DNA of 23,987 nt from a virus: positions 1 to 23,987 of IMG/VR virus record IMGVR_UViG_3300025030_000416. One strand, 5' to 3'. Below, one piece after another: positions 6,248 to 22,079 of this stretch. The notes under the pieces are model-generated. The model saw only the letters and a list, made by a program, of their open reading frames with translations. It ran no database searches and was not told where the DNA came from. The stretch's first letter is position 1. Each line of letters opens with the position of its first letter. The position numbers and the translations under genes were made by a program.

Positions 6248-6267
6248 CAGTTTTAATGGAGGATGAA

Positions 6268-6612
6268 ATGGGAATCTGTTGGTACTGTCATTGGGGATGG
6301 CCGAAACCCGTAGCCGATATTTACACGAGGGCTTGCGTTGCCCTGGGAGATGAAGACGGACACGCCTTGCACTACGGACCAGCACATATTGTTTGGGAAG
6401 ATGAAAATTTTGGCTCTGCCGAATGGTGCCTTGAGCACTTTGATGAATACTCCGAGAATTTGAGTGATACCGAAAAGACAGTTGTGCGACAGTCGCTTGT
6501 GGAACTTGTAGCTTTGCCATTGGATGTCCGAGATGTCGAGCCGGAAGATTACGACGATGAACATCCTGCACTATTTCCTCCCCCGGCTGATGTTGTGATG
6601 GTGAAGGTATAA
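6268..6612 (+). CDS. cassette 7: conserved cassette-type protein with CWYCHWGWPKPVA motif
   Basis: The N-terminal MGICWYCHWGWPKPVADIY is a pattern I recall from integron cassette proteins of unknown function. It is followed by HYGPAHIVWEDENF and an acidic C-terminus (114 residues in all). The start is the ATG at 6268 with GGAGG (6258-6262) five bases upstream, not the ATG at 6256, which overlaps that ribosome binding site. The two Cys and one His in the first residues may bind metal. The stop lies in the left core of A8. It is bracketed by two near-identical attC sites, as expected for a cassette from a homogeneous chromosomal array. Confidence 0.75.
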   Translation: MGICWYCHWGWPKPVADIYTRACVALGDEDGHALHYGPAHIVWEDENFGSAEWCLEHFDEYSENLSDTEKTVVRQSLVELVALPLDVRDVEPEDYDDEHPALFPPPADVVMVKV

Positions 6613-6663
6613 CGACTGAATTGACCGGCGCTTTTGGGCGTCCGGTCGAATGACTTGTTATGT
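6607..6663 (+). repeat. attC site A8 (57 bp), near-identical to A7
   Basis: Left core GTATAAC (6607-6613) and right core GTTATGT (6657-6663), with a stem identical to A7. It is the last complete attC of array 1. Confidence 0.9.
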
Positions 6664-6671
6664 AAGGTTTT

Positions 6672-6863
6672 ATGAATCTTATTAAATTTTTTCATTCCAT
6701 TCGGTTATTTCCTAAGTGCGGTGCTTGGATGATTGAGAAACGCCCAAACTACCAAGAAGAGGATCTGGATGAATGGGAAACTGTTGGTTCCCATATTTGT
6801 TACCGTTGGAAGTATCACGATGGATTACACCGATGTCATTGCGGAAAAATATTTCATACATAA
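6672..6863 (+). CDS. cassette 8: small Cys/His-rich protein, last of array 1
   Basis: The 63-residue product has Cys and His near its C-terminus (HICYRWKYHDGLHRCHCGKIF), a possible zinc site. The ATG at 6672 follows the right core of A8, with only a short TAAGG upstream. The stop TAA lies in ACATAAC (6858-6864), which resembles a left attC core as in the other cassettes. However, no palindrome or right core follows, so the downstream attC appears lost. Confidence 0.6.
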   Translation: MNLIKFFHSIRLFPKCGAWMIEKRPNYQEEDLDEWETVGSHICYRWKYHDGLHRCHCGKIFHT

Positions 6864-6864
6864 C
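6858..6864 (+). other. putative left-core remnant of an attC at the end of array 1
   Basis: ACATAAC contains the stop codon of cassette 8 in the same way that other left cores contain their gene's stop. No attC stem follows; phage sequence starts at once. A 7-base degenerate match is weak on its own. It gains weight from the orphan right half-site at 10497-10514. Confidence 0.35.
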
Positions 6865-6918
6865 AGTTTGGTAGGGAGCACAAAACAATCATGAATGGTA
6901 GAAGGAGGTGAATAAGTT

Positions 6919-7173
6919 ATGACTTGGCGGGGATGGTTACTAGCAGTGGTGTTAAGCATAGCAATTAGTTCCGCTGGATGGGCAGGGGGGCGGGATAGAG
7001 AATGTAGTGGGTATCGGGCCAGCACAGGGGATTGCGATAGAGACGGTAAACCGAACTGGAGGGACCCGGACTGGCAGGATAGGAATAACGAGGTTGAAGA
7101 TTATTATAGAGATGACGATGGAGACGGGATAATTAATTCGGTTGACCCAGTGGAGGATGAGGATGTCTCTTAA
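6919..7173 (+). CDS. secreted Asp-rich protein with thrombospondin type 3-like calcium-binding repeats
   Basis: The first 22 residues are a signal peptide (TWRGWLLAVVLSIAISSAGWAG, cleavage after AGWA or close by). The mature part has DCDRDGKPNWRDPDW and DDDGDGIINSVDPVEDED. These match the DxDxDG-N/D pattern of thrombospondin type 3-like or EF-hand-like loops that bind Ca2+. AAGGAGGTGA gives a very strong ribosome binding site. It is 84 residues long, the first phage gene after array 1, and overlaps the next gene by 11 bases. An exported role at the host envelope is inferred; a decoration or lysis-associated protein is possible. Confidence 0.65.
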   Translation: MTWRGWLLAVVLSIAISSAGWAGGRDRECSGYRASTGDCDRDGKPNWRDPDWQDRNNEVEDYYRDDDGDGIINSVDPVEDEDVS

Positions 7174-7513
7174 AGCCGGCGGTAGGAAGTTCAAAATTCT
7201 CTATGTAGATTTTCTGTGGCAGAAGGTTAGAAAGTACGGGTCAGAGAAACAAGATATAGACGAGGGATTAAAAAAAGAACTCTGGCCGATCTTAGAAGCC
7301 GCATCAGAGGCCGGGGAGGAGATACGGATAACGGACGATAGGGCTATGGGCGTACCACCAATTTTTTATTTAGCCGTGTCATTAAGTATACAGGCATACC
7401 TGGAACTTGCTCTAAAGACAGGTAAACCACTGGTGTTAAATAAACAGCCCAGTGCCGAGCAGGGGTACTCTCGTAAGGCGATGCAAGAATTAAAAAAAAG
7501 GGGTATAAATTGA
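7163..7513 (+). CDS. hypothetical 116-residue phage protein
   Basis: The start at 7163 is chosen because GGAGG (7152-7156) lies six bases upstream; the ATG at 7157 and a TTG at 7142 are less well placed. The protein is mostly helical and mixed in charge (VDFLWQKVRKYG, ELWPILEAASEAGEEI), with a Lys/Arg-rich C-terminus. No signal peptide or known motif is seen. It is tightly packed between overlapping neighbours, typical of one transcription unit. Confidence 0.65.
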   Translation: MSLKAGGRKFKILYVDFLWQKVRKYGSEKQDIDEGLKKELWPILEAASEAGEEIRITDDRAMGVPPIFYLAVSLSIQAYLELALKTGKPLVLNKQPSAEQGYSRKAMQELKKRGIN

Positions 7514-7749
7514 AAGCAATTGATATTGATGATGATCCTATTGATGATCCTATTGATCCCGATAGAGCAATAGATGTGAATTGGCGGAGATATTTTGCCG
7601 ATGTAGCCAACAGGGAAAAGGAGCATTTCTCCTATCCCTCGGCTTATACAGAACCCGAACCCGGAATGCCACCATATTGGTTAAGGTTCCGGGTTTTTGA
7701 TGTTGCGGGTACCGTGCGGACTAGGTCATGCATAATGGGAAAGAATTAG
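7510..7749 (+). CDS. small Asp-rich hypothetical protein
   Basis: It starts with TTG overlapping the preceding stop (TTGA), implying coupled translation. The N-terminus is a short acidic repeat (DIDDDPIDDPIDPDRAID), and the rest contains aromatic residues and a Pro-rich patch. It is 79 residues long. No family recognised. The non-ATG start makes the call less certain. Confidence 0.5.
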   Translation: MKAIDIDDDPIDDPIDPDRAIDVNWRRYFADVANREKEHFSYPSAYTEPEPGMPPYWLRFRVFDVAGTVRTRSCIMGKN

Positions 7750-7761
7750 AGGAGCGCGGAA

Positions 7762-8019
7762 ATGTTTAATCAAGGGCAGATAGTACGGCATAAATTAAGT
7801 CCACGTGTACATTTTTTGGTCTTGGGGCAGTTAAGCCCCGGGAATTATGTTTTACGGGTGGCGGCTGGGGAGGTATTAGATTTATCTCAAGTAGTAGTGC
7901 TCAATGAGATAGAGTTAGAAGGAGTAGAAGATGAAGGCGGGGAGAGGATTCCAGAGGCCGAGGACTATGACTGGGAGAATACCCCGGAACTAGGAATAGA
8001 TGACTTAATAGGGAGGTAA
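7762..8019 (+). CDS. hypothetical acidic protein with beta-rich N-terminal half
   Basis: Residues 1-45 of the 85-residue product look like a small beta barrel (GQIVRHKLSPRVHFLVLGQL, then NYVLRVAAGEVLDLSQVVVL), a shape common in phage accessory proteins. The C-terminal half is strongly acidic. GGAGCGCGG lies upstream of the ATG. Function unknown. Confidence 0.65.
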   Translation: MFNQGQIVRHKLSPRVHFLVLGQLSPGNYVLRVAAGEVLDLSQVVVLNEIELEGVEDEGGERIPEAEDYDWENTPELGIDDLIGR

Positions 8020-8023
8020 AAAG

Positions 8024-8296
8024 ATGAAGATAGGGATAAAAGCAGGAGAAGAAGTAGAACTTTCTTACAAGAGTTATTCTGGATACATGGAAGATACCCT
8101 TCTAATTACAGTTGAGGCTATGGGCGGCAACAAAACTAAGGAGTCTATTATTTCTATTAATAGGTATCCGATACTGAGGGTTTGTGATAAGGTTTTTGAA
8201 CTAATTTTAACGGCTCCAGCAGGGCGGAAAATATTTAAAAATACACTAATGAAGGTTTTGTTACATGAAGAAGATAGTCCGACAGAAGCGGAATAA
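8024..8296 (+). CDS. hypothetical 90-residue protein
   Basis: It begins five bases after the preceding stop, with GGGAGG as ribosome binding site. It is predicted mixed alpha/beta, with no signal peptide. The end overlaps the next gene by 32 bases in another frame. No family recognised. Confidence 0.6.
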   Translation: MKIGIKAGEEVELSYKSYSGYMEDTLLITVEAMGGNKTKESIISINRYPILRVCDKVFELILTAPAGRKIFKNTLMKVLLHEEDSPTEAE

Positions 8297-8552
8297 AGAA
8301 ATAGCCAAGCTATTTTGGGAAGAGCACTGGCCTAAGAAACGGATTGCTAGAACGCTAGGCTTAGATATTACAACGGTTAGAGATATATTGGGAAAGGAAG
8401 AAGCCCCACAACCTTTGACCACACAAGTTCCTATACAACCTTCTACTCAGGTAAAGAAAGAAGGTAAAAAGAAACTAGAGGACTATACCTTGGAAGAGGC
8501 AGAGGGGATAACCAAGCTGATAGAAAAGGTTTTAGAAAAAGTGGGAGGGTAA
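8265..8552 (+). CDS. small helix-turn-helix DNA-binding protein
   Basis: Residues about 8-42 form a clear helix-turn-helix (RNKEIAKLFWEEHWPKKRIA, then RTLGLDITTVRDIL), like the N-terminal HTH of transposase or sigma-like regulators. A Pro/Gln/Thr linker follows, then an acidic helical C-terminus. The 95-residue gene starts inside the end of its upstream neighbour. A regulator of this gene block, or a DNA-bound structural protein, is plausible. No target site was identified. Confidence 0.65.
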   Translation: MKKIVRQKRNKEIAKLFWEEHWPKKRIARTLGLDITTVRDILGKEEAPQPLTTQVPIQPSTQVKKEGKKKLEDYTLEEAEGITKLIEKVLEKVGG

Positions 8553-8600
8553 AGCAGATGGAAAGGTGGGGTATGTTAGAAAGGAAAAGGGAGGAGAATA

Positions 8601-9488
8601 ATGCAAGAGTTATATAGAGCAGTATTTATAACACAGATTTTTAGTTGCGAGCGGTGTTTCCAGGCAGTTAGAGAGGTGTTTACAAAGACCAGCGGACTAA
8701 CTATCGAAGAAGGTGAGACACTAAAACAGGCCAGCGAAGCCAAGAACCGGACTAATGTGTTTGGGAGAATGATTAAGGTTGCTCTCCCCGCAGAAAACCA
8801 GCGTCCAGAACGGGCTTTTTTGCACGGCATTATCCAGTATCGCACTATGCACAGCCTGGACATTATTTTTAGAGACAGTATTCTTAAAAAAGTTACTGGA
8901 GCGATATGCCATGAAGTCAGGATAGCTGTTGTAGGGCATGGGGAGACCAAGCAATATGTATTAAAACCCGGGATAGAACCTATTGACGAAACGGCACAGG
9001 TTAAGTTAGCTCACCAAAGCGATTATCTCGAGATAGAAAGCACCAGGAGGCTGCTGGAGAACCTAAGCAATAAAGAGTGGATAAGCGAGGGCGATTTACG
9101 GAGACGGTTTGAAGACAGTAAAGGCCATACTGGAAGCTACTGGAGCTTAGGGAACAAGATTGAAACCGCATTACGGGTAGGCTTTATACAGACGGCTCCC
9201 GATACGACCCAAATTATGTTTTCTATTACCAAGCTGGGCCTGAAATTCCTTAAAGGGGGGATAATGACAGTATTAGAACATGAAAGGGGCCTGGTGAGGG
9301 GACTGCATCTTGCGATCTTAGAGTGGAACGACGGTATAGCATCTTTGAAGGGATTAACGGCGGGATTAACGCAGAACATGACCCGGTTGCTTACTGACGG
9401 TAGTATCCAGGGAGAAGATAAAGAAGAGCGGGAGGCTTTTTTGGACGAACTAGACAGAAGCCGGGACTTTAGGGAAAAGGTAGAGTAA
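8601..9488 (+). CDS. hypothetical 295-residue phage protein
   Basis: GGGAGGAG lies six bases before the ATG. The protein is soluble. Residues about 130-220 contain helix-turn patterns (TRRLLENLSNKEWISEGDLRR, then a beta-hairpin-like ITKLGLKFLKGG) that resemble a winged-helix fold. The C-terminal 60 residues are highly charged helix. An early CERC pair could bind metal. I do not recognise the family. It is followed at 13 bases by another unknown gene. Confidence 0.65.
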   Translation: MQELYRAVFITQIFSCERCFQAVREVFTKTSGLTIEEGETLKQASEAKNRTNVFGRMIKVALPAENQRPERAFLHGIIQYRTMHSLDIIFRDSILKKVTGAICHEVRIAVVGHGETKQYVLKPGIEPIDETAQVKLAHQSDYLEIESTRRLLENLSNKEWISEGDLRRRFEDSKGHTGSYWSLGNKIETALRVGFIQTAPDTTQIMFSITKLGLKFLKGGIMTVLEHERGLVRGLHLAILEWNDGIASLKGLTAGLTQNMTRLLTDGSIQGEDKEEREAFLDELDRSRDFREKVE

Positions 9489-9500
9489 AGGAGGAATTTT

Positions 9501-10133
9501 ATGCTTTTAAAGGCAAAAATCAAGCAATATCAGGTAAAGATCGGTATAGGGCTGTTGTTAGGGGGATTGCCCCAGGATAAAAAAGCATTAGAATATCTTG
9601 CCGGGCATCCAGAGAGAGACGGTTCCTTAGCGGCTAGTGAGATGTTGGCTGATAATGCAGAGGAGCTTGAAGAAATTGAGGAAAAAAGAAGTAATAAGTG
9701 TATCTTTCGTAGAACGCCAGACGGAAAGCCTGCGGTTGACGAGCATCATGTCCGGGCTTTTGTCCGGGATGTGCTTAAAAAGCTGGAGTTAAATAAAAAA
9801 GCTCCGTGGAAAGGGTTCTGGATGAGCGTCCATACTGTTCCGATGCTGATTCCAGTTGAAGGAGAAGAGATTATAGAGAGCCGGGCATTCAAAGCTGGGT
9901 TTCCGAATCCTGCTAATATTGTTGTAGTGCATGAAGCGGTAAAAAACGCTACCCTTAGGTTCACACTGGAAATTCACGGGGATAATGGAGAGAAGGCTAG
10001 TATTGAAGATTTGCACTATATCTTTGAATACGGAGGGCGGTATGTAGGATTTGGGCCAGCCAAAACTAAGTCCATGAGTGAAACGCCTTATGGGATATTC
10101 ACTTGTCATAACCTTGTTCCTTCTCCTGAATAG
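9501..10133 (+). CDS. hypothetical 210-residue phage protein
   Basis: AGGAGG precedes the ATG by seven bases. The N-terminus is basic helical, the middle has an acidic helix (EELEEIEEKRS), and the C-terminal 110 residues look beta-rich. It ends near GGRYVGFGPAKTKSMSETPY, a glycine-rich closing pattern I have seen in conserved phage proteins of unknown role. No catalytic motif is visible. It is the last confident phage gene before array 2. Confidence 0.65.
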   Translation: MLLKAKIKQYQVKIGIGLLLGGLPQDKKALEYLAGHPERDGSLAASEMLADNAEELEEIEEKRSNKCIFRRTPDGKPAVDEHHVRAFVRDVLKKLELNKKAPWKGFWMSVHTVPMLIPVEGEEIIESRAFKAGFPNPANIVVVHEAVKNATLRFTLEIHGDNGEKASIEDLHYIFEYGGRYVGFGPAKTKSMSETPYGIFTCHNLVPSPE

Positions 10134-10227
10134 AAAAGGCTGAGGCCTAAGAACAGACCAGAAGGGAAGAGTCTTAGACCGAGGTATAGAGACGAAGGGC
10201 CATGGACTTGAAGGGAAGAGACTTGAT
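10134..10227. repeat. short intergenic stretch with two imperfect direct repeats
   Basis: GAAGGGAAGAG occurs at about 10161-10171 and again at about 10210-10220, each followed by a similar CTT-containing stretch. No gene or palindrome was seen. The second copy sits just before the ATG at 10228 and may act as a weak ribosome binding site. Confidence 0.35.
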
Positions 10228-10512
10228 ATGCCTTTGACTGGAATGGAAAAGACGAGATTGGCCTTAGATTGGATAAGAAAGGATGCCCAGGGAATTGTAG
10301 TTGAATATAGTGTTGATGATTACCCGAAAGACTGGGAACTAACCCCTGCACTTTGGGAAAGGTGGATAGTCGGAAAGCTCAAGGATGCAGGTGTTCCGAT
10401 CAAGGGTGTTTTGAAATTTTCGGGGCTTGAAAGTGGCACGCTGCATAGGCTGGACGACCCTGCTGATTTTGGTAGGGCGAAATGGGTTTGGGTACCTCCA
10501 GCCGCTTGTTAG
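10228..10512 (+). CDS. hypothetical protein whose C-terminus runs into an attC remnant
   Basis: The 94-residue product reads coherently to GRAKWVWVP. The last residues (PAAC) and the TAG stop are encoded by the right half of an attC site (10497-10514). The N-terminal half is helical, with TRLALDWIRKDA. The ribosome binding site is weak. The native C-terminus is probably lost and replaced by attC-derived sequence, so this may be a truncated gene. Family unknown. Confidence 0.5.
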   Translation: MPLTGMEKTRLALDWIRKDAQGIVVEYSVDDYPKDWELTPALWERWIVGKLKDAGVPIKGVLKFSGLESGTLHRLDDPADFGRAKWVWVPPAAC

Positions 10513-10514
10513 GA
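10497..10514 (+). other. right half of an attC site (left half missing), start of array 2
   Basis: The 17 bases TCCAGCCGCTTGTTAGG are identical to the right end of attC A5 (5446-5462). They include the right core GTTAGGA (10508-10514) and the outer stem arm CAGCC. No left core or matching left arm is found directly upstream, where the gene at 10228-10512 runs instead. Confidence 0.7.
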
Positions 10515-10521
10515 GGTAATT

Positions 10522-10755
10522 ATGGAAGGAAGCCGCATAGAAGCACAAAGGCAAAAGAATCTTCGGCGTTCAGAACTGCTGGGAAAAGTGTTTAGAATAG
10601 TTATTGTTGCAGGCAAAGCAGGACAGATTGGGTACAGGTGCTATCGCTCTAAAGGTATGAAGCTAAAATGTGGTCGTTGTGGGCGAGGGAATATTACGGT
10701 TGAATTAGGTTATAAATGCCGTGTTTGCGGGACGGAGGTAATACAGATTATATAA
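10522..10755 (+). CDS. cassette 9: small zinc-ribbon protein
   Basis: The 77-residue product is basic at the N-terminus. Its C-terminal half has KCGRCGRGN and, 14 residues on, KCRVCGTE. This is a classic four-Cys zinc ribbon (CxxC...CxxC), as in small RNA- or DNA-binding proteins. The ribosome binding site GGAGGT overlaps the right core of the attC half-site, and the stop TAA lies in the left core of A9. The exact role is unknown. Confidence 0.7.
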   Translation: MEGSRIEAQRQKNLRRSELLGKVFRIVIVAGKAGQIGYRCYRSKGMKLKCGRCGRGNITVELGYKCRVCGTEVIQII

Positions 10756-10839
10756 CGTAGAGGTCAGCGGCGGCGGGCCGCTGACTCCAGAATTGAAACA
10801 AGACGCGAACCCGCCGTTCGCTGCACCGCTTGGTTAGGC
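10750..10839 (+). repeat. attC site A9 (90 bp, longest of the window)
   Basis: Left core ATATAAC (10750-10756) and right core GTTAGGC (10833-10839). Inside are two separate hairpins: GTCAGCGGC with GCCGCTGAC, and GCGAAC with GTTCGC. The layout departs from the single long stem of the other sites. It may be a longer attC variant or a fusion of two attC halves. Confidence 0.7.
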
Positions 10840-10843
10840 CATT

Positions 10844-11197
10844 ATGAGTCAACGCTTGCACATCGGAAACACGAAAGACGAGTTCTACGACTGCGTGCTG
10901 GAAAGCGCGGATGGCGCAGAAGAAAAACTGCGGGCAGATTGGCTCGCGATGGGAAACGGATTCTATCTCGGGCCGTGGAAAATACGAATCGGCGACAAGA
11001 ACCTGTTCAAGGAAATCGAACCGATCATCGCAGGAATCTTCGAGGAACTTGGCAAGGAATACCCGGACGATGTTTGGGCGTTCTATGACGGCGAACGAAA
11101 CTTGGAGCATCCGACGCGCGAGGAGCTGGGCGCATGGCTTTGGCCTAACGCAGAGGTCAGCCGACGGCGTAGCCGGTCGGCTGGAGCGACTGGTTAG
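10844..11197 (+). CDS. cassette 10: hypothetical acidic protein whose reading frame runs through attC A10
   Basis: The 117-residue frame starts four bases after the right core of A9. Residues 1-100 read as a coherent soluble, acidic protein (NGFYLGPWKIRIGD, GIFEELGKEYPDD). The last 17 residues are encoded by attC A10, and the stop TAG falls in its right core. The gene is markedly G+C-rich compared with the phage genes. There is no clear Shine-Dalgarno. Family not recognised, though the WPNAEVSRRRSRSAGATG tail is simply translated attC. Confidence 0.65.
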   Translation: MSQRLHIGNTKDEFYDCVLESADGAEEKLRADWLAMGNGFYLGPWKIRIGDKNLFKEIEPIIAGIFEELGKEYPDDVWAFYDGERNLEHPTREELGAWLWPNAEVSRRRSRSAGATG

Positions 11198-11199
11198 CT
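11143..11199 (+). repeat. attC site A10 (57 bp)
   Basis: Left core GCCTAAC (11143-11149) and right core GTTAGCT (11193-11199) match consensus well. The stem pairs CAGCCGAC and GGC on the left with GCC and GTCGGCTG on the right. Confidence 0.9.
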
Positions 11200-11218
11200 A
11201 CGGAAAGGGGAAACTTTT

Positions 11219-11449
11219 ATGCATAAAGAAGAACTTATCTTTAAAGTAATTGAGCCTTCAGGAAAAGTCTATAAAATATACACAAACGGCAAAACTGAAG
11301 GGTTCGCTAAGGGTTCATGTATATTTAAGTATCATATTGGGTTGTTGAATCGTCAATTGGCTACTCAATATTTGGTCAATAAATCCCTTGCGTCATCATG
11401 TCCTGCAACAAAGGCAATATCATCAGAGCTAGGGGGATTGCAAGGATGA
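11219..11449 (+). CDS. cassette 11: hypothetical 76-residue protein, 3' end overlapping a reverse pseudogene
   Basis: The first 45 residues form a beta-rich unit (FKVIEPSGKVYKIYTNGKTE, GFAKGSCIFKY) of a kind I associate with cassette proteins of unknown function. The ATG follows a GGAAAGGGGAAA stretch. The C-terminal third overlaps the antisense remnant at 11376-11735 and may not be native. The attC that should follow this gene was not found, so it may be fused to the next cassette. Confidence 0.5.
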   Translation: MHKEELIFKVIEPSGKVYKIYTNGKTEGFAKGSCIFKYHIGLLNRQLATQYLVNKSLASSCPATKAISSELGGLQG

Positions 11450-11775
11450 CCGTTTCACCATAACCAAGGGGGTAATATGATGAATTTTTTATGTGGGCTT
11501 TATCAAAAGGGTAACCGAGAGCCTTACCCATTACATGCAAGAGGTCAATCAATAGATCAGCTTTACGGGGTGCCCATGATTCAAGTGGGTAATTTTTGTC
11601 CTGAAGGTGAGCATGATAAAGTTTCCATGCCGAAAGGACATCCTGCTCAAGCGATGTCTTGGGAAGAAATTCAACATCAATCATGTTTAGACTCTCGACA
11701 TGCTGAGGAGCCAGAGTGGATGAACGAGTAGACATGAGGTCTTTAAATATTCTTAATTTTCTTTCTCTGCCGCGA
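11376..11775 (-). pseudogene. cassette remnant: 5'-truncated DUF6680-like gene (reverse orientation)
   Basis: The minus strand reads KLRIFKDLMSTRSSTLAPQH then VESLNMIDVEF, AWKLYHAHL and LLIDLLHVMGKALGYPFDKAHIK. I recognise these as the core of DUF6680-type small membrane proteins, common in genomic accessory regions. Family members begin with a membrane segment before this core. Here that part is missing, because reading upstream past the only ATG (11735) the frame runs at about 11770 into the arm of a truncated attC. The C-terminus (ILAIPLALMILPLLQDM) also looks atypical. The overlapping plus ORF at 11477-11731 has a possible ribosome binding site but low-complexity sense. The family name is from memory and needs a profile search. 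Confidence 0.55.
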
Positions 11776-11809
11776 AGGCGGAGCGTCCGCGTTGACGCAA
11801 ATGTTAGGC
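11776..11809 (+). other. right half of an attC site (left half missing)
   Basis: Right core GTTAGGC (11803-11809) is preceded by a long arm, GGCGGAGCGTCCGCGTTGAC then GCAAAT, which has no complementary left arm or left core upstream. The deletion removed the left half together with the 5' end of the reverse DUF6680-like gene. Confidence 0.6.
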
Positions 11810-11826
11810 ATGGTAAAGGAGCGATG

Positions 11827-12276
11827 ATGAAAACGGTAGGTGATTACCTTCGCAAGCTGCAAGAGTTCCCGGAAGATTGGCCAGTATGGGTTTCAACGCA
11901 AGCCGGCGGCGGAATTTCCATTGAACACCGGGAGATAAACGGCGAGCCTGTAGTGGCCGTCTTTGGCAGCAACGGCGGACGTTTCGGCGAGAACCCGCTG
12001 ACCGACCAAGAGTACGAAAAAAAGTCCAAGTTGTTCCTTGGTCTGCGGCAGCAGGGTTACGAGTATACCTCAATCCACGGCGACCACCGACTGTATCGGC
12101 GAAGCGGAATGAACGATACCTGCTACGGCACTCACTTTGATAGACGCATTGTTGAACGCATGGTGGACGAAGGGCTGTTGCACGAAACCGAAGTGGATGT
12201 TGCGCGAGTGCGGCGTTGTACAGGGCAGGCGTTGACTTCATTGGTTTTGAAAAAGACGCCACTTATTACGAAATAG
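11827..12276 (+). CDS. cassette 12: hypothetical 149-residue protein
   Basis: The start is at 11827 (or the adjacent ATG at 11824), with AAAGGAG (11815-11821) upstream. The longer frame from 11716 crosses the attC arm and is rejected. The N-terminal 70 residues (TVGDYLRKLQEFPEDWPVWV, then GSNGGRFGEN) resemble small cassette or phage proteins of unknown role. The second half has GDHRLYRRSGMNDTCYGTHF and a helical EGLLHETEVD. It is G+C-rich relative to phage genes. No catalytic motif identified. Confidence 0.7.
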   Translation: MKTVGDYLRKLQEFPEDWPVWVSTQAGGGISIEHREINGEPVVAVFGSNGGRFGENPLTDQEYEKKSKLFLGLRQQGYEYTSIHGDHRLYRRSGMNDTCYGTHFDRRIVERMVDEGLLHETEVDVARVRRCTGQALTSLVLKKTPLITK

Positions 12277-12296
12277 CAAAGGGCAAATTAGGTGCT

Positions 12297-12356
12297 TGCT
12301 AACGCTAGAACTCACCTGCCGCCGCTTCGGCGGTCAGGTGTAGTGACTTGTTAGGA
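12297..12356 (+). repeat. attC site A11 (60 bp)
   Basis: Left core TGCTAAC (12297-12303) and right core GTTAGGA (12350-12356). The stem pairs ACCTG and CCGCCG with CGGCGG and CAGGT around CTT. The left arm, from AACGC through CACCTGC, is shared with A12. Confidence 0.9.
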
Positions 12357-12728
12357 GGAGGTAATTTTGTTTATAAGCCATAGTACAAGCCATATAATAT
12401 CTTCCCTTGCTGCTATTGTAGCGATTATTATAGCTATAATCATGATTATTCGATCATTCCAACGAGAACGGTTAGCTAACCGTGCCTCTGCCAAAGCAGA
12501 AGAAGCAATGCGGTTAGCTTCTTTGGCTATAGAGAGAGTGGCTTCTTCACGTGCATCACGTTTAGTTGCATCAGATGCTTCCAATGCAAGCCGTTTAGAT
12601 TCAAGCCAGGCATCAACCTGAGACCGTCTTTCTGTACCGAGGGAACCATGCAGTCCTTTTGCAATTTCAAGCAAGATAGCCTCCGGGCCTTTGGCCTCAA
12701 GGGGTTCAACAAGGTAGGATTTGTCCAT
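12351..12728 (-). CDS. cassette 13 (reverse-oriented gene): coiled-coil protein with C-terminal membrane segment
   Basis: The 125-residue minus-strand protein has the same plan as the one at 5458-5835: a GPEAILLEIAKGLHGSLG helix, a DAWLESKRLALEAS segment, an Ala-rich coiled coil (residues about 55-90) and a hydrophobic C-terminus (IIMIIAIIIATIA, then IIWLVLWLI). The ribosome binding site AGGAGGT, seven bases before the ATG, is partly supplied by the reverse complement of the A12 left core (GTTAGGA). The stop TAA lies in the A11 right core. A plus-strand ORF with a TTG start (12367-12621) also has a Shine-Dalgarno, but the shared family points to the minus strand. It probably sits in the inner membrane with the coiled coil in the cytoplasm. 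Confidence 0.68.
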   Translation of the reverse strand: MDKSYLVEPLEAKGPEAILLEIAKGLHGSLGTERRSQVDAWLESKRLALEASDATKRDAREEATLSIAKEANRIASSALAEARLANRSRWNDRIIMIIAIIIATIAAREDIIWLVLWLINKITSS

Positions 12729-12738
12729 TTTTATTACC

Positions 12739-12806
12739 TCCTAACGCTAGAACTCACCTGCTAAAACCGCCTTGCGGTTTTGGTCAGGTGGAGGGACTGG
12801 TTAGCA
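12739..12806 (+). repeat. attC site A12 (68 bp), right boundary of array 2
   Basis: Left core TCCTAAC (12739-12745) and right core GTTAGCA (12800-12806). The long stem pairs CTCACCTG and AAAACCGC with GCGGTTTT and CAGGTGGAG. Phage sequence leading to the terminase starts right after; 12807-12876 holds no recognisable gene. Confidence 0.9.
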
Positions 12807-12876
12807 TTTATGAAGATATTATTAAAGATATTTATTCCTCAATTTATTGGTTTTCCTTAATTAGAAATTCTTTGAG

Positions 12877-14505
12877 ATGACTTGTTTCTACTGCAATAAA
12901 AAAGTACCCAATATAGGACAGGATTACTGGGGTGATCCGATATGCCAGGAGTGCAACGCCAGGTATTATAAGCCTGGTTGGGAGACGGGGCAGGATAGGC
13001 ATAGGATAGAATTGCCCTGGTATTTAAAGATCAGGTACGATATAGATAAAGCCGAGCAGGGCATTATAGTAAAATACTCTCCTCTACCCTCTATTCAACC
13101 GTTCCACCAGAGTAGGGGTTACAATCGGTGTATAATTGGCCCCAGGGGCTCGACCAAGACATCCTCTGCCCTTATAGAAAAGTTGCTTATTGCCCAGAGG
13201 AACTTTCCTCGGTTCAGGCATTTTAAGTTTTTAATTGTGAGAAGGACCTATCGGGAACTGAAAGATTCTACACAGGCAACCTTCTTTAAGCTCTTTCCAA
13301 AAGATGAAGTAAACTGCATCTATAGGGGTGGAGAAGAAGAAACGGCTAGTTTGATCTTACAGGGAGCTAACCCAGGGGTAGTAGATTTTATTTTTAGAAG
13401 TGCCCAAGAGCCAGAGGATGTTGGTAAGTTCCTGTCCGGTGAATATACTGGGGTACTTATTGATGAGGCCGTACAAGTACCGAGGATGGTACGAGATGGG
13501 CTGGTAGGCTGCTTACGGTATCCAGAAGGCTTCCCCCCAAAAGATTATCATATTGATCTTATAAGTAACCCCCCTGACTCCGAAGAACACTGGATATATC
13601 AGTGTTTCTATCCTGAATCCAGGAAAAAATTACCCAACCATGCCCTTTTCCTCAATACTCCATTTGAAAATAAACCGATGCTCCGTAACGACCCCAATTA
13701 TTACAATAAACTTTGTGAGGCAATGCCCCCGGATATGGCTGAAATATATGTTTATGGAAAGGTGGGGTACATACAGAAGGGAGACCCTTTTTATCCCTGG
13801 TTTGCGAAAGATTTGCATGTCTTTGATAAGACACAGGAAAAGCTGTCTCCTTACGGGACAATACTCAGGGGGTTGGATTTTGGTCTGGGTAAAAGTGTTT
13901 GTTTATATTGCTATGAAGATGAGAGAGGGAATATTGATATACTGGATGAGATAGTTGTGAGTGATCGGGGAGGGACAAAAAGATTGGCTGAGATGGCGAT
14001 ACTCCTGAAAAACAGATGTTATCGGGACTTTCTTTTTGAAGATTTTGCCGATATTGCAGGCAAAAATTATACTTCTGCAAGTCCAGATACCTCGGATTTT
14101 GATATTTTGACGAAATACGGTATTATCCCCCGGGGCAGGCAATCGCAATATAAAGAACGTCGTAATATTTTGTATCACTTCCTTACAACTATTGACCCAG
14201 AGCTAAAACGGCCTAAATTGCGGGTAGATAAAAGTTGTGTGAATATTATCCGGGGTTTTCTGGGGGGCTATCGGCAGCCTAAACAGAAAGACCGGACAAC
14301 AACCCAAAAAGTAATGCCGGTAAAAGAGGGGCATTACGAACATTTTTTTAATGCCTTAGAATATATCTTGGTGGGGCGTTATGGGATGGATGACCAGGCA
14401 GAACTACCGCTTAGGGGTAAGAGACGGGACACATACGATAGTGGAGAGGACTGGTTTGGAGAGATGGAACCAGTAGAAAATCAATGGGGATACTTAGGGA
14501 GGTGA
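12877..14505 (+). CDS. terL: large terminase subunit (packaging ATPase and nuclease)
   Basis: This 542-residue protein pumps phage DNA into proheads and cuts it. The ATPase domain has Walker A GPRGSTKT (residues 88-95) and Walker B GVLIDE (192-197). The C-terminal RNase H-like nuclease has its first acidic residue in RGLDFGLGKS (D334), further acidic residues in LFEDFADIAG, and HFFNALEYI near the end. Unusually, the N-terminus carries CFYC and CQEC (Cys 3, 6, 23, 26), a four-Cys zinc-ribbon-like motif before the motor. The start ATG has no strong Shine-Dalgarno and lies 70 bases after the last attC, so part of its native leader may have been altered by the array. It heads the structural gene run. 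Confidence 0.92.
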   Translation: MTCFYCNKKVPNIGQDYWGDPICQECNARYYKPGWETGQDRHRIELPWYLKIRYDIDKAEQGIIVKYSPLPSIQPFHQSRGYNRCIIGPRGSTKTSSALIEKLLIAQRNFPRFRHFKFLIVRRTYRELKDSTQATFFKLFPKDEVNCIYRGGEEETASLILQGANPGVVDFIFRSAQEPEDVGKFLSGEYTGVLIDEAVQVPRMVRDGLVGCLRYPEGFPPKDYHIDLISNPPDSEEHWIYQCFYPESRKKLPNHALFLNTPFENKPMLRNDPNYYNKLCEAMPPDMAEIYVYGKVGYIQKGDPFYPWFAKDLHVFDKTQEKLSPYGTILRGLDFGLGKSVCLYCYEDERGNIDILDEIVVSDRGGTKRLAEMAILLKNRCYRDFLFEDFADIAGKNYTSASPDTSDFDILTKYGIIPRGRQSQYKERRNILYHFLTTIDPELKRPKLRVDKSCVNIIRGFLGGYRQPKQKDRTTTQKVMPVKEGHYEHFFNALEYILVGRYGMDDQAELPLRGKRRDTYDSGEDWFGEMEPVENQWGYLGR

Positions 14506-14977: not shown

Positions 14978-14998
14978 TTGGCCAAAGATGGAGACAGA

Positions 14999-16936
14999 AT
15001 GTTACTTGATTCATTAGATTACGAAATATTGGGCTTGCCGACAGTAGGTGGTAATATAGGGGATCTGTTTGGCAAGCCCAATATTGTCAGAGAAAGCCTA
15101 GCGGACTATGACTATGCAAAGGCTAAATGGAAGAAGTGGCAGAAGGAGACAAAAGAGAGCTTTGGGTTTTATGATGGGTCAGGGCAATGGAATAAACAAC
15201 TAAGGACCTTTTTGGAGTCAAGGAGAAAGCCTGTTATTACGATCAATCAAATTTTAGGGATAGTGAATTTAGTAATCGGGCATTATTGGATCAACCAATT
15301 TGATACTAAGGTCTTTCCTGTAGAATCGGGTGATGAAGTAGTAGCAGAGATATTGACTGAAGTGTTAAAACAGATTGAGAGCCAAACAACGGGTAGGAGA
15401 GAGGTAGGCAAGGGCTTTATCCAGGCCCTTATTAGTGGAATAGGCTATTTGGACTTAGGATTAGAGGAAGATATGTGGAGACAAAAGGAATACATTAGAT
15501 ATAAGGTCTTTAATCCCTTACATGCCTTGCCCGATCCCGATTATACAGAAGATGATTTCAAGGATGCGGATTTTTTTATTAAAGAGATGGAGTTTAGTAA
15601 GAAGAAGTTTATAGCCGCCTACCCAGAGGCAGAAGATTTAATACAGGATTTAACTAACTATTATGCCTTAGAACTTGACTCTGGCATTGTTGACCACGAT
15701 TCCCGTCCTGGCGGTAGATATGATGATGCCGATATGTTTGGTATGCCCCGGAACCGTACTCCCTACAAAGTTATCGAAAGACAGTATCGGGAATATAAAG
15801 ATACCTACCTTATTGCTGATCCCTTTAAGGATAATGTAATAGAGCTTGAGCGGGAAGAATATTTACAACACAGAGGCACTTTTATAGATGATCTGGAGAT
15901 TGTTAAAAAACGCACCCCTGCCCTAAAGACTATTTCTATCCTCCTTGGCCCTAACGAAATTATCGAAGGACCAGTCGAAAGCCCCGTACATAATTATTAT
16001 TACTCCATTACCCCTATTTTTGCGTATGATTCTTTAGGGAAAAAATTTGGCATAGTGGAAAACTTGAAGGGGCCACAGATGGAGCGCAACAAACGACGGG
16101 CTCAACTATTGGAAATGCTGCTGTTAGCTCCCCAGGTTGGCCTTACTATAGATCACGGAGCACTTAGTCCGGCGATGATAGCAAAAATAGAACGGGAAGG
16201 AATATCGGCAGGGAGTATCTTAGTTAAAATGCCGGGTAGAAATATACAGGTCCGGCCCCAAGCCCAATTTCCTGATGGCTTTTTTAGGTTAGAGCAGGAA
16301 GCGAAAGACGACTCCTATGATGTTTCTAGTGTAAATAAAGACCTATTAGGCTTTAAAGATGATAAAACAGCATCGGGCAGGGCTATTGGCTTGAGACAAA
16401 GGCAGGCAGCAGTGTCGTTACAGGGGTTGCTGGAAAATTTCAAGTTTGCCAAGCAGCATCTTAGCCGGATGGTACTATGGCTAGTCCAGGACACCTATCA
16501 ATATGATGACTTTATTAGAGTTATCGGCCAAAAAGATACCCCCCTTAGACAAAGGCTGTTCGATAAGGGGATAAGACGTATCTTAGAGGACTTAACGATT
16601 ACCGATTATGATGTTGTAGTAGCGGAAGGGGAAAGCACCCCTACTGCACGGCTGGCAAGGTTTGAAGAGGCAATGAGTCTGCTCGAATCCCCTCTCCAAA
16701 AATACTTTCCCCCACAGGCAATGGCAGAGATAGGAAAAGCATTAATAGAAATGAGTGATATGCCAGGTGATATTAAAGATAGTATCAGGCAGCAGACAGA
16801 GGTACTAGGACAAATTATGGGCGGGGCTAATATGCCTCCTACGGGCCGGCAGATATTTCCGGCTGGAGGCAATATTGGAGCACCGCCACTACCACCACAA
16901 CCCGGCCCGCCACCTATGGCGGCAGCTATAGTATAA
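14999..16936 (+). CDS. portal protein (P22-like podovirus type)
   Basis: This 645-residue protein forms the dodecameric ring through which DNA enters and leaves the head. The start at 14999 is chosen for GGAG (14990-14993) five bases upstream; an in-frame TTG at 14978 lies in the terminator T-run. Portal-like features include ITINQILGIVNLVIGHYWIN near residue 75, GIGYLDLGLEED (about 155), FNPLHALPDPDYTE (about 180), the DADFFI helix, and the stem-region helices QMERNKRRAQLLEML. The C-terminus is Pro/Gly-rich. The size and order (terminase, portal, scaffold, capsid) match P22-like podoviruses. Confidence 0.88.
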   Translation: MLLDSLDYEILGLPTVGGNIGDLFGKPNIVRESLADYDYAKAKWKKWQKETKESFGFYDGSGQWNKQLRTFLESRRKPVITINQILGIVNLVIGHYWINQFDTKVFPVESGDEVVAEILTEVLKQIESQTTGRREVGKGFIQALISGIGYLDLGLEEDMWRQKEYIRYKVFNPLHALPDPDYTEDDFKDADFFIKEMEFSKKKFIAAYPEAEDLIQDLTNYYALELDSGIVDHDSRPGGRYDDADMFGMPRNRTPYKVIERQYREYKDTYLIADPFKDNVIELEREEYLQHRGTFIDDLEIVKKRTPALKTISILLGPNEIIEGPVESPVHNYYYSITPIFAYDSLGKKFGIVENLKGPQMERNKRRAQLLEMLLLAPQVGLTIDHGALSPAMIAKIEREGISAGSILVKMPGRNIQVRPQAQFPDGFFRLEQEAKDDSYDVSSVNKDLLGFKDDKTASGRAIGLRQRQAAVSLQGLLENFKFAKQHLSRMVLWLVQDTYQYDDFIRVIGQKDTPLRQRLFDKGIRRILEDLTITDYDVVVAEGESTPTARLARFEEAMSLLESPLQKYFPPQAMAEIGKALIEMSDMPGDIKDSIRQQTEVLGQIMGGANMPPTGRQIFPAGGNIGAPPLPPQPGPPPMAAAIV

Positions 16937-17306: not shown

Positions 17307-17468
17307 ATGGCAAAGACAGTTTGCAAACCAAGTCCGAACATGGAGCCCTCACAAGAAGGGATAATGAAAGGCATGTCTGGAAAGGGTACTAATAAGGGTA
17401 ATGACCAGATGATGCCAGAGATGCAGAAAGGAACGAATAAGAAAGAGGGTAAGCATATGGAGAAATAA
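17307..17468 (+). CDS. small Lys/Met/Gly-rich protein (53 residues)
   Basis: AAGGAGGTGG lies just before the ATG, a very strong ribosome binding site. The product has repeated KGTNKG and KGTNKKEG units with scattered Met and no hydrophobic segment, so it is probably disordered. It is the last gene before the structured leader of the scaffold-capsid unit. No family recognised. Confidence 0.55.
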   Translation: MAKTVCKPSPNMEPSQEGIMKGMSGKGTNKGNDQMMPEMQKGTNKKEGKHMEK

Positions 17469-17547
17469 CTTACTTCTCAGAGTAAGTAAAAATTGATCTT
17501 CTCCAAGCCGTTGCAACGGTTGAGAAAAGTCCCGTCTCATGGAGAAG
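17469..17547 (+). ncRNA. intergenic hairpin cluster
   Basis: CTTACT (17469-17474) pairs with AGTAAG (17481-17486). CTTCTCC (17498-17504) pairs with GGAGAAG (17541-17547), enclosing CCGTT/AACGG (17508-17519). There is no gene here; the 284 bases from 17469 to 17752 are almost entirely hairpins. Confidence 0.45.
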
Positions 17548-17552
17548 GAAAG

Positions 17553-17635
17553 GGCATAGGAAGGGGGACATTCCTATTGAGCTTGGCTGGGTTATCCCAG
17601 TCCTCAGTAGAGAATGTCCCCCTTTTTTTATGCCC
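17553..17635 (+). terminator. long terminator-like hairpin before the scaffold-capsid unit
   Basis: GGGGGACATTC (17563-17573) pairs perfectly with GAATGTCCCCC (17612-17622), followed by seven T (17623-17629). GGGCATA (17553-17559) pairs with TATGCCC (17629-17635) on the outside, and CTGGG/CCCAG forms an inner hairpin. It should stop most upstream transcription, which implies regulated read-through or a new start before the scaffold gene. Confidence 0.65.
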
Positions 17636-17647
17636 AAAGTATCGGGC

Positions 17648-17737
17648 CGGTTACTAAGCAGCAATGCTTACCCGAAACGGTTACTAGGTAGAAATACCTA
17701 CCCGAAACGGTTACTAGGCAATAATGCCTACCCGAAA
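17648..17737 (+). ncRNA. three tandem 30-nt hairpin units with compensatory stem changes
   Basis: Each unit has CGG, TTAC, a six-base stem arm, a four-base loop, the matching arm, CCCG and AAA. The arms are TAAGCA/TGCTTA (17655-17670), TAGGTA/TACCTA (17685-17700) and TAGGCA/TGCCTA (17715-17730). Two positions change between units, and each time the partner base changes so that pairing is kept. Loops 1 and 2 are GCAA and GAAA (GNRA tetraloops); loop 3 is ATAA. The units end just before the scaffold ribosome binding site. An in-frame translation (RLLGxNxYPK repeats) exists from 17630 but has no ribosome binding site. Confidence 0.7.
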
Positions 17738-17752
17738 GAAAGGAGACCTAAG

Positions 17753-18661
17753 ATGGAACTAAAATTTGATGCCAGTATTGCCGATGACCTTCTTGGTGAA
17801 GGTGATGGCAGTACAACTCCCGGAGATTCGCCTATTAGATTTGACTCTGAGACTCCCCCGGATACTTCTTTATCTGCTCTATTAGATGAGATAGATAAAG
17901 AACCCGTAAGCGGTGAGCCAGAGCCACAGATAGACGAGGCTCTAAAGAAGTTTATGGCTAAGTATGGGAACGATCCTGCAAAGATCGCTGCGGCGGCCCT
18001 TGAGTCGCAAAAGCGGATGAATAAGGTTGCCCGGGAGCGAACCCAGTATGAACGTGAGCTACGGGAGCGTGAAGAAAAAATAAGGGAATTACGCTCCTTA
18101 ACAGTGCAACCCCCACAAGGCAGGCAAGCAAATCCTTCTCAAGACCTTCCTGAATGGGATGAGGTGTATCCAGACCCTAATAAGTTCTTTCCTATAATAG
18201 ATAGGCGGATAGAAGAAGTTACCCACGCTGTCTTACAAAATGCCCGCCAGCAAGAGCAGCAGAGGCAGGCATTACAAGAACTTAAAACGGCGGATATAGA
18301 GTTTGAAGATAATCATCCCGAACTCAGTATAGAGGAAGTTGAGAAGGTCAAGCGTTATGCTGAACGTAGAGGCGTCCGATACTTAGAAGATGCCTACCGA
18401 AGCATTCTGTCTATACAACAGCAGACAGGCGGTAAGAATAGCGGCAAAGACAACCGTCGTGCAGAGATTGCTCGACTCACCAGACCGAGAACTTTACGGT
18501 CTAGCGGTGTCGGCGGTATGGGAAGCGGCGGTAGTACGAATTTAGAAGAAGAGCTACAGAAGGTCGCTAACGGGAGTATGGAAGACTATGCCAAATTACC
18601 GCCAACAGTTCAGAAACGCATCCAATATATGCTTGCTAGGGGGGGGTTGCCAGAAGAATAG
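17753..18661 (+). CDS. putative scaffold protein
   Basis: The start at 17753 has AGGAG (17741-17745) seven bases upstream; the open frame reaches back to 17630 through the hairpin repeats, which I do not count as coding. The product is about 302 residues, highly charged, with an acidic N-terminus, a long helical coiled coil (RERTQYERELREREEKIREL, then more Gln/Glu-rich helix) and a Gly-rich stretch near the end. This composition and its place directly before the major capsid gene fit a scaffold that guides prohead assembly and leaves before packaging. It is called from context and composition; no motif is diagnostic. Confidence 0.75.
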   Translation: MELKFDASIADDLLGEGDGSTTPGDSPIRFDSETPPDTSLSALLDEIDKEPVSGEPEPQIDEALKKFMAKYGNDPAKIAAAALESQKRMNKVARERTQYERELREREEKIRELRSLTVQPPQGRQANPSQDLPEWDEVYPDPNKFFPIIDRRIEEVTHAVLQNARQQEQQRQALQELKTADIEFEDNHPELSIEEVEKVKRYAERRGVRYLEDAYRSILSIQQQTGGKNSGKDNRRAEIARLTRPRTLRSSGVGGMGSGGSTNLEEELQKVANGSMEDYAKLPPTVQKRIQYMLARGGLPEE

Positions 18662-18675
18662 AGGTGAGAAAATAA

Positions 18676-19704
18676 ATGGCAGATACTAGCATTGCAACTG
18701 GAAGTGCTTTAACTCAGAAGTTATGGGATAAGGCGATAATTTTTGAGGCCATGAAGTATTTATACTTCAAGCGGTTTAGTGGCCCTGGTATGAACAATAT
18801 TTTTGAGGAAAAGGATGATCTATCCAAGAAGAAGGGCGATAGGATAACCTATCAGCTCTTTATGAAATTGGCCAATGCTCCCTCTTTAAGCGGTAGTACC
18901 CTGGAGCTTAACGAAGAGGCTTTAGTTCCTTACTCCGATACTGTAACGGTGGAGTTAATGCGGAACGGTGTCCGGCTAGATGGAGAACTAACCGAGCAAC
19001 GGGTAGTTTTTAACCTGCAAGAGACTGCCAGGCAGGCCCTAGCGATATGGTTAGCTGAAACGATAGATTCATATTGTTTCAGGTTTCTCTGGGGAGATAC
19101 GACCCTTACCTTTGGTGAAACGGCGCAAGCACCAGAGGCTACTGCTATAGTCTATGCGGGTGATGCGACAAGCACTAGCGATATTGATGCGAGTGATACC
19201 TACGATCTTACTCTTATGGATGCGTGTAAGGAAAAAGCTATCACCCGGGACCCAATGGTAAGGCCGCTGAATGTTGATGGAGATGAGGTTTATATCAACA
19301 TTCTACATCCGTTTCAAATTACCGATATACGGAGCAACACCGCTGCGGGCCAGTGGCAAGATTATCAGAAATATGCTGCGGCCCAGGATGGGCAAAAAAA
19401 TCCCATCTTCACAGGGGCAAATGCCATGTACAATGGTGTGCTGATCCATTCCCATAGGAACATCCGTACAGTAACCAACTGGGGAGCGGGTAGTAATGTT
19501 AATGGCGCAGAGGGATTGTTCTGTGGGAAGCAAACCGGGTGTATAGCCTGGGCAAAAAAGCCTTTCTGGAGGCAGAAGTTGTTTGATTACCAGGATAAGG
19601 CTGGTTTTGCATGTGGAGCTATATTGGGTATTAACAAGACTATCTTCAATAGTCTGGATTATGCCGTGTTTGTAGTTCGGTCAGCGGCAGTAGCCCATAG
19701 TTAA
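18676..19704 (+). CDS. major capsid protein (N4-gp56-like family)
   Basis: The 342-residue protein has the pattern EKDDLSKKKGDRITYQLFMK then ANAPSLSGSTLELNEEALVP and YSDTVTVELMRNGVRLDGELTEQR. I recognise this as the N4-gp56 family of HK97-fold capsid proteins. Later stretches include DGDEVYINILHPFQITDIR and GVLIHSHRNIRT, which fit the capsid core. GAGGTGAG precedes the ATG. It follows the scaffold at 14 bases and should be the most highly expressed gene of the unit. Confidence 0.88.
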   Translation: MADTSIATGSALTQKLWDKAIIFEAMKYLYFKRFSGPGMNNIFEEKDDLSKKKGDRITYQLFMKLANAPSLSGSTLELNEEALVPYSDTVTVELMRNGVRLDGELTEQRVVFNLQETARQALAIWLAETIDSYCFRFLWGDTTLTFGETAQAPEATAIVYAGDATSTSDIDASDTYDLTLMDACKEKAITRDPMVRPLNVDGDEVYINILHPFQITDIRSNTAAGQWQDYQKYAAAQDGQKNPIFTGANAMYNGVLIHSHRNIRTVTNWGAGSNVNGAEGLFCGKQTGCIAWAKKPFWRQKLFDYQDKAGFACGAILGINKTIFNSLDYAVFVVRSAAVAHS

Positions 19705-20274: not shown

Positions 20275-21468
20275 TTGGTTCTATTGACCTTTGTTGTTAT
20301 CCTGACTATTGCACTTAGTATTGATCCCTTTACCACCGATTGTTTGAACTATAAAACCCTGAGCTTGCTGACATTTGGGGGAGTAGGGGCGGTGGTTTTA
20401 TTCTGGAAGCAATATCCCCTATTTTCTGTTCTTGCCCTTGTGGCCTTATACCATTATGTCAGTCCGGCAGGTATGTTCCCGCCTAGTCTTATTGTGCTGG
20501 CTTATGGAGTGCTTTTTACCGCACTCTTTTATTTCTGCAAAAACCATCTCCAGGATAATTGGATTAAGATGGCTATATGTGTGGCGGCTATTTTCCAGGC
20601 TGGTTATGGTCTGATGCAAATTTTCTATGACCCGATATTTACAATGATTGACGAATCCCTTGTAAGTTGGCGCATATTTGGGACCTTCGGCAATAGTCAG
20701 TATTGGGCAATGTTTCTGGTGGCAGCTATCCCGCTATTTTTTGTCAATAGTTCGGTTCGTTATTTCAGGGCAATAGGATTACCTATAGTATTGGGGGCGT
20801 TATTAGCCAATATTGTTGTCCGCCATGAGATAGGATTTAGTGAAATGGTGGGGGTGATTGCCGGATTGATATGGGTGGCGCATTTAGGCATTAGGCGGCA
20901 TTTCTTTCTTCCTTTTGTTGTAACGAGTCTTTTAGCAGGGATTTTAGTGAGTGTTATGCTGAGCTTTTCATCAGCAATCAGGAGTAATGTAGTTATGGCA
21001 TTCAATAACCGGCTTTATATTACCAAAGAGACCATGTCTCTTATTAAGAAACAGCCCATAACAGGTTATGGGTTGGGCTTTTATGAGCCTATCATGTCGT
21101 TATATGATAAGCAATGGGAGCATACGCAGGCCCGGGGGCCTAACAAGTGGGGTAAAGACACGATTCTTACCTATGCCCATAATGAATATTTGCAGGCATG
21201 GTTTGAACTGGGTTTGCTGGGGTTGGTAGGAAGCGTGGGACTATTCTGTTACGTTGGATGGCAGGCATTATTTGGGACTGTAAATATGCCCTATTGGTAT
21301 AGTGTATTTATTGTCGGACTGTTCGCATGGGTACATTTCCCCTTGCACTTGCCTTTTATGGCGGTGTTTTTTCTTAGGGGGACCGAGCAGCCACTGCCAG
21401 TGAAAAAGAAAAAGGGGAAAGGGTTGTATTATGGTTGCCCAATGCCCAGGACGGTGAAGTTTATTTGA
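20275..21468 (+). CDS. O-antigen ligase/polymerase-like integral membrane protein
   Basis: The 397-residue protein has about ten hydrophobic segments. It also carries the Wzy_C/O-antigen ligase signatures: GTFGN (136-140) before a membrane segment, KKQPITGYGLGFY (258-270), and a loop ending AHNEYLQAWFELGLLGLVG (301-319), with the conserved His and Glu. Such enzymes join or polymerise O-antigen or related glycans on the periplasmic face of the inner membrane. The start TTG has AAAGGAG about eight bases upstream. The C-terminus is Lys-rich. Placed amid head genes, it could alter the host surface polysaccharide. The exact substrate cannot be read from sequence. Confidence 0.75.
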   Translation: MVLLTFVVILTIALSIDPFTTDCLNYKTLSLLTFGGVGAVVLFWKQYPLFSVLALVALYHYVSPAGMFPPSLIVLAYGVLFTALFYFCKNHLQDNWIKMAICVAAIFQAGYGLMQIFYDPIFTMIDESLVSWRIFGTFGNSQYWAMFLVAAIPLFFVNSSVRYFRAIGLPIVLGALLANIVVRHEIGFSEMVGVIAGLIWVAHLGIRRHFFLPFVVTSLLAGILVSVMLSFSSAIRSNVVMAFNNRLYITKETMSLIKKQPITGYGLGFYEPIMSLYDKQWEHTQARGPNKWGKDTILTYAHNEYLQAWFELGLLGLVGSVGLFCYVGWQALFGTVNMPYWYSVFIVGLFAWVHFPLHLPFMAVFFLRGTEQPLPVKKKKGKGLYYGCPMPRTVKFI

Positions 21469-22027: not shown

Positions 22028-22079
22028 GGGGCTGGCCCTGGGGAAAATAAGCCTAGATAGAGACAGGATGCCCAGCCCC
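22028..22079 (+). other. long-range hairpin before the adaptor gene
   Basis: GGGGCTGG (22028-22035) pairs with CCAGCCCC (22072-22079), with CCTG (22037-22040) and CAGG (22064-22067) pairing inside. There is no T-run, so it is not a clear terminator. It may act on RNA stability or translation of the gene at 22097. Confidence 0.45.

Follow-up and report, generated by a model that had tools for sequence, protein, structure and literature searches.

Three tandem hairpins before the putative scaffold gene of a tailed phage: a candidate leader element of the scaffold-capsid mRNA

What might three near-copies of one small hairpin be doing directly before the head assembly genes of a tailed phage? 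The question is raised by a tailed-phage fragment of 23,987 nt (an IMG/VR virus record), analysed here over its whole length and called the window below, the right half of which carries a packaging and head module. The large terminase gene (12877-14505) is followed by a P22-like portal gene (14978-16936; Pfam P22_portal, E=2.1e-88), three small ORFs, a structured non-coding stretch at about 17468-17752 and then, both on the + strand, a putative scaffold gene of 302 aa (17753-18661) and the gene for the major capsid protein (18676-19704; Pfam Phage_capsid_3, E=1.7e-41; PHROG 334). As assignments by profile match, those of the capsid and portal proteins are strong. The scaffold identity of 17753-18661 is putative and comes mainly from gene order, the profile matches being weak (Pfam Phage_scaffold at E=6.6e-4, below its cut-off, and PHROG head scaffolding at E=0.006). 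The hairpins lie within the non-coding stretch, and the putative scaffold gene is the first gene 3' of them. Further along, amid head and tail genes, the window encodes a Wzy_C/O-antigen-ligase-like membrane protein (20275-21468; Pfam E=5e-16).

The array consists of three contiguous 30-nt units at 17648-17737 (TRF: period 30, 3.0 copies, 85% matches) and is the top-scoring TRF tandem array of the window. The unit motif, with up to 3 mismatches allowed, is found nowhere else in the window and had 0 occurrences in shuffles. Every unit folded alone is predicted to adopt the same structure, (((....((((((....)))))).))), at -7.7, -8.1 and -9.2 kcal/mol: an outer clamp of 3 bp (CGG/CCG) is separated by a 4x1 internal loop (UUAC facing C) from an inner stem of 6 bp, which carries a 4-nt loop, and AAA trails the hairpin. 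On the + strand, unit 1 (17648-17677) reads CGG-UUAC-UAAGCA-GCAA-UGCUUA-C-CCG-AAA, unit 2 (17678-17707) has the stem UAGGUA/UACCUA with the loop GAAA, and unit 3 (17708-17737) has the stem UAGGCA/UGCCUA with the loop AUAA. Two of the three loops are GNRA tetraloops, as had been noticed from the sequence alone; AUAA is not. All nine pairs are Watson-Crick in all three copies, which are 83-87% alike. The leader as a whole has a folding z of about -7.5; that of each unit is modest, about -2.0 to -2.9, and an alternative predicted fold of the leader includes pairing between units.

The differences between the copies leave the stems paired. There are six variable columns (10, 12, 14, 15, 19 and 21), four of which make up two stem pairs. 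Columns 10 and 21 covary, with A-T in copy 1 and G-C in the other two, and so do columns 12 and 19, where copy 2 has T-A and copies 1 and 3 have C-G; columns 14 and 15 are loop bases, and there is no uncompensated stem change. The claim that the units differ at two stem positions, each change being matched by its partner, is thus borne out. In column shuffling, 54 of 300,000 trials produced a helix of five or more pairs, two or more of them covarying, and seven random substitutions placed on the consensus kept all pairs and yielded at least 2 covarying ones with p = 3.6e-5 (3.2e-4 when only transitions were allowed), both null models being simple ones picked after the array had been seen. The variation is also unevenly placed: the 16-nt core takes all six variable columns, and the 14 columns that flank it have none (p=0.0135, a post hoc and weak statistic). 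The hairpin observation is correct and beyond chance, and selection on RNA pairing of the units is likely. That said, the evidence for compensation consists of two pair changes inside one virus, and the sequence-only reading took the paired changes to indicate selection on RNA structure. Proof of this they are not, since template switching can rewrite one arm of a stem to fit its partner and so produce paired stem changes in one event (PMC8794818).

The surroundings of the array are structured as well. On its 5' side lies a long terminator-like hairpin (17552-17635, + strand) with a T7 run at 17623-17629 and an outer stem GGGCAUA/UAUGCCC. The strong terminator-like hairpin described earlier is real, with the difference that its stem runs beyond the T-run; since the stem closes over the run, the modelled structure could also be a processing (cleavage) site besides a terminator. 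A three-way-junction-like fold (CUUCUCCA...UGGAGAAG; 17498-17547, + strand), predicted from folding only, is found 5' of the terminator. On the other side, the array fills almost the whole gap from the terminator-like hairpin to the Shine-Dalgarno-like AAGGAG (17740-17745, + strand) that serves the scaffold ATG at 17753. This ribosome-binding site begins 3 nt after unit 3, which agrees with the position originally given to the array. No sigma-70-like promoter is listed from 17273 to the scaffold gene (17753), and an open frame from an ATG at 17630 crosses the array in phase into the scaffold gene (ORF 17630-18661, 343 aa). Two tertiary or alternative pairings were considered and set aside. Antitermination would have the array pair with the arms of the terminator; the predicted fold shows none of this, and the array lies downstream of the terminator. 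For a GAAA tetraloop docking into a receptor of 11 nt (CCUAAG...UAUGG) where the scaffold gene starts, CCUAAG and AUGG are present, but there is no loop and one base is wrong.

Does the array occur elsewhere? The window shares more than 99.8% identity with three other IMG/VR contigs, in all of which the array is letter-identical, with 0 differences over 17400-18700. By capsid protein, the closest relatives after these reach no more than 44% identity, and in the nearest capsid group (L021-L035) the loci having both genes show a portal-scaffold gap of about 10-15 nt and no leader. The covariance-model search proposed in the sequence-only reading could be carried out, and it returned the window and the three near-identical records, leaving no divergent relative for comparison: there was no match beyond the window in 82 loci (449 kb), and the matches in 12 whole records were limited to the three near-identical ones. 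The exact array pattern is absent from 84,980 prokaryote genomes, and a scan of viral contigs with that pattern gave the three near-identical contigs and one chance match (L003). A looser pattern hit at least 119 stretches; among the matches listed, a tandem array is seen only in the window's own records, and those that pair elsewhere are few and single, without tandem copies. No phage DNA similar to 17400-19704 was found, the scaffold, portal and capsid proteins as single queries brought back the three near-identical contigs and nothing else, genome contigs scanned for the terminase yielded no closer relatives, and Rfam gave 0 matches in the window at gathering score. Among the relatives, genomes and Rfam families searched, the array thus appears to be an orphan, so far seen in one virus, and because of this its age and maintenance cannot be judged.

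Our preferred reading, which we hold tentatively, is that the array acts in cis as a leader of the scaffold-capsid mRNA, probably as a row of three protein-binding sites that tunes expression. The 5' leader of this mRNA would include the array, and the recognised surface of each unit would be its conserved outer part (the CGG/CCG clamp, the UUAC/C internal loop and the AAA linker), the inner 6-bp stem having a structural role only. Three copies would allow multivalent binding of one RNA-binding protein, of the phage or the host, and the bound protein would set the amounts of scaffold and capsid, most simply via translation initiation 3 nt downstream or via mRNA lifetime. That the array is transcribed, that it is bound, by which protein and in which direction this acts are points that we infer. 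The model is favoured by the retention of all 9 pairs in the 3 copies despite six variable columns, and the restriction of changes to the core fits an internal loop and linkers that are read and a stem that is not. Against it, no divergent relative carries the array, so that there is no independent covariation, and the nearest capsid relatives are without a leader; the unit z is modest, pairing between units is possible, and the third loop is not GNRA. What stands of the earlier interpretation, then, is the hairpins, their paired differences and the scaffold-capsid leader position, but not the paired changes as proof of selection. The roles it suggested, in binding a coat or scaffold protein, in controlling translation or in read-through, are candidates and not established.

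A less specific role would require no dedicated protein at all. In transcripts of bacteria and phages, leader hairpins are an established means of stabilising mRNA, and the array may be a passive 5' stabiliser or insulator in which hairpins slow an exonuclease or RNase E and keep the ribosome-binding site open. The mRNA would then start with three hairpins after read-through or cleavage in 17552-17635. The position of the array between a long hairpin that closes over its own T-run and an exposed AAGGAG is what such an arrangement would look like, the hairpins are repeated, and capsid needs high expression. A stabiliser needs no conserved internal loop or linker, yet there are 0 changes in those 14 columns, an argument tempered by a p of only 0.0135 and by copies that are possibly young. 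We regard this explanation as unlikely, though the likeliest of the alternatives.

It is also conceivable that the array has no selected function and arose by recent tandem triplication of a small palindrome, the paired changes coming from template switching within the hairpin during replication, for which paired stem changes in one event are documented (PMC8794818). Copies 83-87% alike and confined to one virus are consistent with this, and an array that is letter-identical in the three other contigs gives no sign of long maintenance. Such an origin would take two separate conversions in different copies, and it would have to account for changes that are confined to the core. Moreover, no loop (GCAA, GAAA or AUAA) reverse-complements another, so the footprint of loop inversion is missing, a test to be read with the proviso that a stem-only conversion leaves none. 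On balance a purely neutral array is unlikely, yet template switching is an alternative to be given weight.

The units might instead act as duplex DNA, as three operators or phage-specific promoter elements for scaffold-capsid transcription, with 6-bp half-sites, a 4-bp spacer and a distance of 30 bp between sites; an operon behind a terminator needs a promoter. This would suit 16-bp palindromes at a regular 30-bp spacing in what is nearly the sole sequence from terminator to gene, as well as the lack of a listed sigma-70-type promoter between 17273 and 17753. The sequence of a half-site is normally constant, whereas here both half-sites change together with symmetry kept, which pairing fits better. 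Symmetry is also imperfect outside the core (UUAC vs C), and the window holds no other copies, unlike what is expected of a general phage promoter. DNA operators are therefore improbable. Translation of the array, in which the scaffold N-terminus would start at ATG 17630 and carry three RLLGxNxYPK repeats, is very improbable: the frame is open and in phase (17630-18661) and 30 nt is a multiple of 3, but this ATG directly follows the T-run inside the outer stem of the long hairpin and has no ribosome-binding site, ATG 17753 has a good one (AAGGAG), and the copy differences (S/G/G, S/R/N, A/T/A) are mostly non-synonymous while nucleotide pairing is perfect.

A protein-read leader would have well-known counterparts. 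The MS2-type translational operator and lambda boxB are hairpins in phage mRNA leaders that are read by proteins, and like them the units are short hairpins with an unpaired feature in stem or loop, placed beside the start of a structural gene. The window differs in its tandem triplet, its 4x1 internal loop and its apparent origin in a dsDNA tailed phage, so the likeness is one of resemblance only. A second parallel comes from P22, where unassembled scaffold lowers its own synthesis post-transcriptionally. The window shares with P22 the type of portal and the portal-scaffold-coat order, and the array sits where an autoregulatory site would be, although the window scaffold gives no sign of RNA binding; a literature search on P22 scaffold autoregulation turned up nothing usable.

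Other known elements fit less well. A CsrA/RsmA target leader needs GGA in the hairpin loops, which here are GCAA, GAAA and AUAA, and there is no CsrA gene in the window. As an observation apart from this array, the gene annotated immediately 5' of the capsid gene in BcepIL02 and Pavtok is CsrA-like (L014 2209-2403 and L018 2197-2388), and a strong hairpin comes after it, near the start of the capsid gene. A lambda-type nut site, which would have a GNRA-like boxB in every copy beside a boxA and ahead of the terminators it overrides, is a poor match, in that AUAA is not GNRA, the loops are of 4 nt and the array comes after the terminator at 17552-17635. The hairpin promoters of N4 virion RNA polymerase, which go with a gene for that polymerase, have a 5-7 bp stem and a 3-nt loop, against the 4-nt loop of the units.

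Though the array itself is confined to one virus, leader hairpins of another kind emerged from the capsid genes of its relatives. These were scored as hairpins with CGUNA within the loop and a stem of five pairs or more, no more than 260 nt upstream of the capsid gene. In a first set, a hairpin with a CGTNA[AC] loop was present in the 260 nt upstream of the capsid gene at 25 of 78 loci, compared to 4.9% of random 260-nt windows drawn from these loci. A second set of 71 non-redundant leaders, centred on L077 and partly overlapping the first, gave such hairpins in 28 leaders, against 9 of 213 windows inside the capsid gene and 4 of 71 leaders on the reverse strand (Fisher p = 2.8e-12 and 7.6e-7 for the two controls). 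Among 256 XYZNW loop patterns, CGTNA ranks first with 42 of the 71 leaders (the runner-up has 18), a ranking that is partly circular because discovery and testing of the motif drew in part on the same loci, and the reverse-strand and in-gene controls leave that circularity in place.

The CGUNA hairpins have a fixed loop and varied stems, lie mostly 40-140 nt before the start codon and are present in two or three copies in 13 of the 71 leaders. They are carried by leaders in the ranges L037-L099 and L220-L297, as well as at about 1400-1460 of L391 and about 2398 of L016, and are missing from the BcepIL02/Pavtok-type clade (0/43). Sequenced carriers include Rhizobium phage RHph_Y1_10 and Microcystis phage Mae-JY35, in which CGUNA hairpins elsewhere in the genome are at background level; the evidence is thus one of enrichment in leaders, not of exclusivity. 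Rfam gave 0 matches in 20 related loci and a literature search on conserved hairpins before capsid genes found nothing usable, and the element looks like an undescribed capsid-leader RNA. Leader hairpins, sometimes several of them, are common before the capsid genes of this capsid family.

The array of the window is not a member of this class. There are no CGUNA hairpins near its scaffold and capsid genes, the only matches being far away at 11344 and 21090, and the likeness of CGGUUAC in the units to the loop CGUUAC in relatives, with an extra G and a different structural place, is put down to chance. The two kinds, the CGUNA one being from related podovirus-type contigs, are alike in preceding a capsid-assembly gene and in having several copies in some cases; they differ in the CGUNA loop, in a position before the capsid and not the scaffold gene, and in stems unrelated to the window units. 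By analogy, the CGUNA hairpins lend indirect support to the leader model. A broader proposal, to which we give little credence, is that multi-copy leader hairpins read by a phage protein are a common means of control over the capsid-assembly genes in this widespread capsid family. CGUNA hairpins would serve this in one group, ahead of the capsid gene, and an independent array of three hairpins would do so here, ahead of the scaffold gene. If true, this would be a general RNA-level means for dsDNA phages to balance scaffold and coat, and RNA-level setting of the scaffold:coat ratio in double-stranded DNA phages is poorly known. A compact triplicated hairpin right before the scaffold gene is easy to transfer to a reporter, and the fixed-loop hairpins in capsid leaders of cultured, sequenced phages make the question testable beyond an uncultured virus.

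The window contains a second set of repeated hairpins. At 4177-12807, flanked by a terminase-small-like HTH gene and the gene of the large terminase, lies an integron cassette array of about ten attC-like sites (YTAACG...GTTAGN, bulged hairpins). The clearest are at 4177-4235, 4732-4791, 4998-5059, 5404-5464 and 5846-5906, as well as at 6191-6248, 6606-6664, 11143-11200, 12297-12357 and 12739-12807. Ten ORFs of the cassette region have no Pfam match, and the window has no tyrosine integrase. Cassette clusters in phages are known (PMC9892861). The 30-nt units before the scaffold gene are not attC sites, which are bulged hairpins of about 60 nt or more, and they have no RYYYAAC/GTTRRRY boxes. 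One of the three near-identical contigs (G002) has the same cassette array from 5474 on. All three lack 28 nt that the window has at 22040-22067, a stretch that sits in a small inverted repeat (GGGGCTGG...CCAGCCCC) of the gap preceding 22097.
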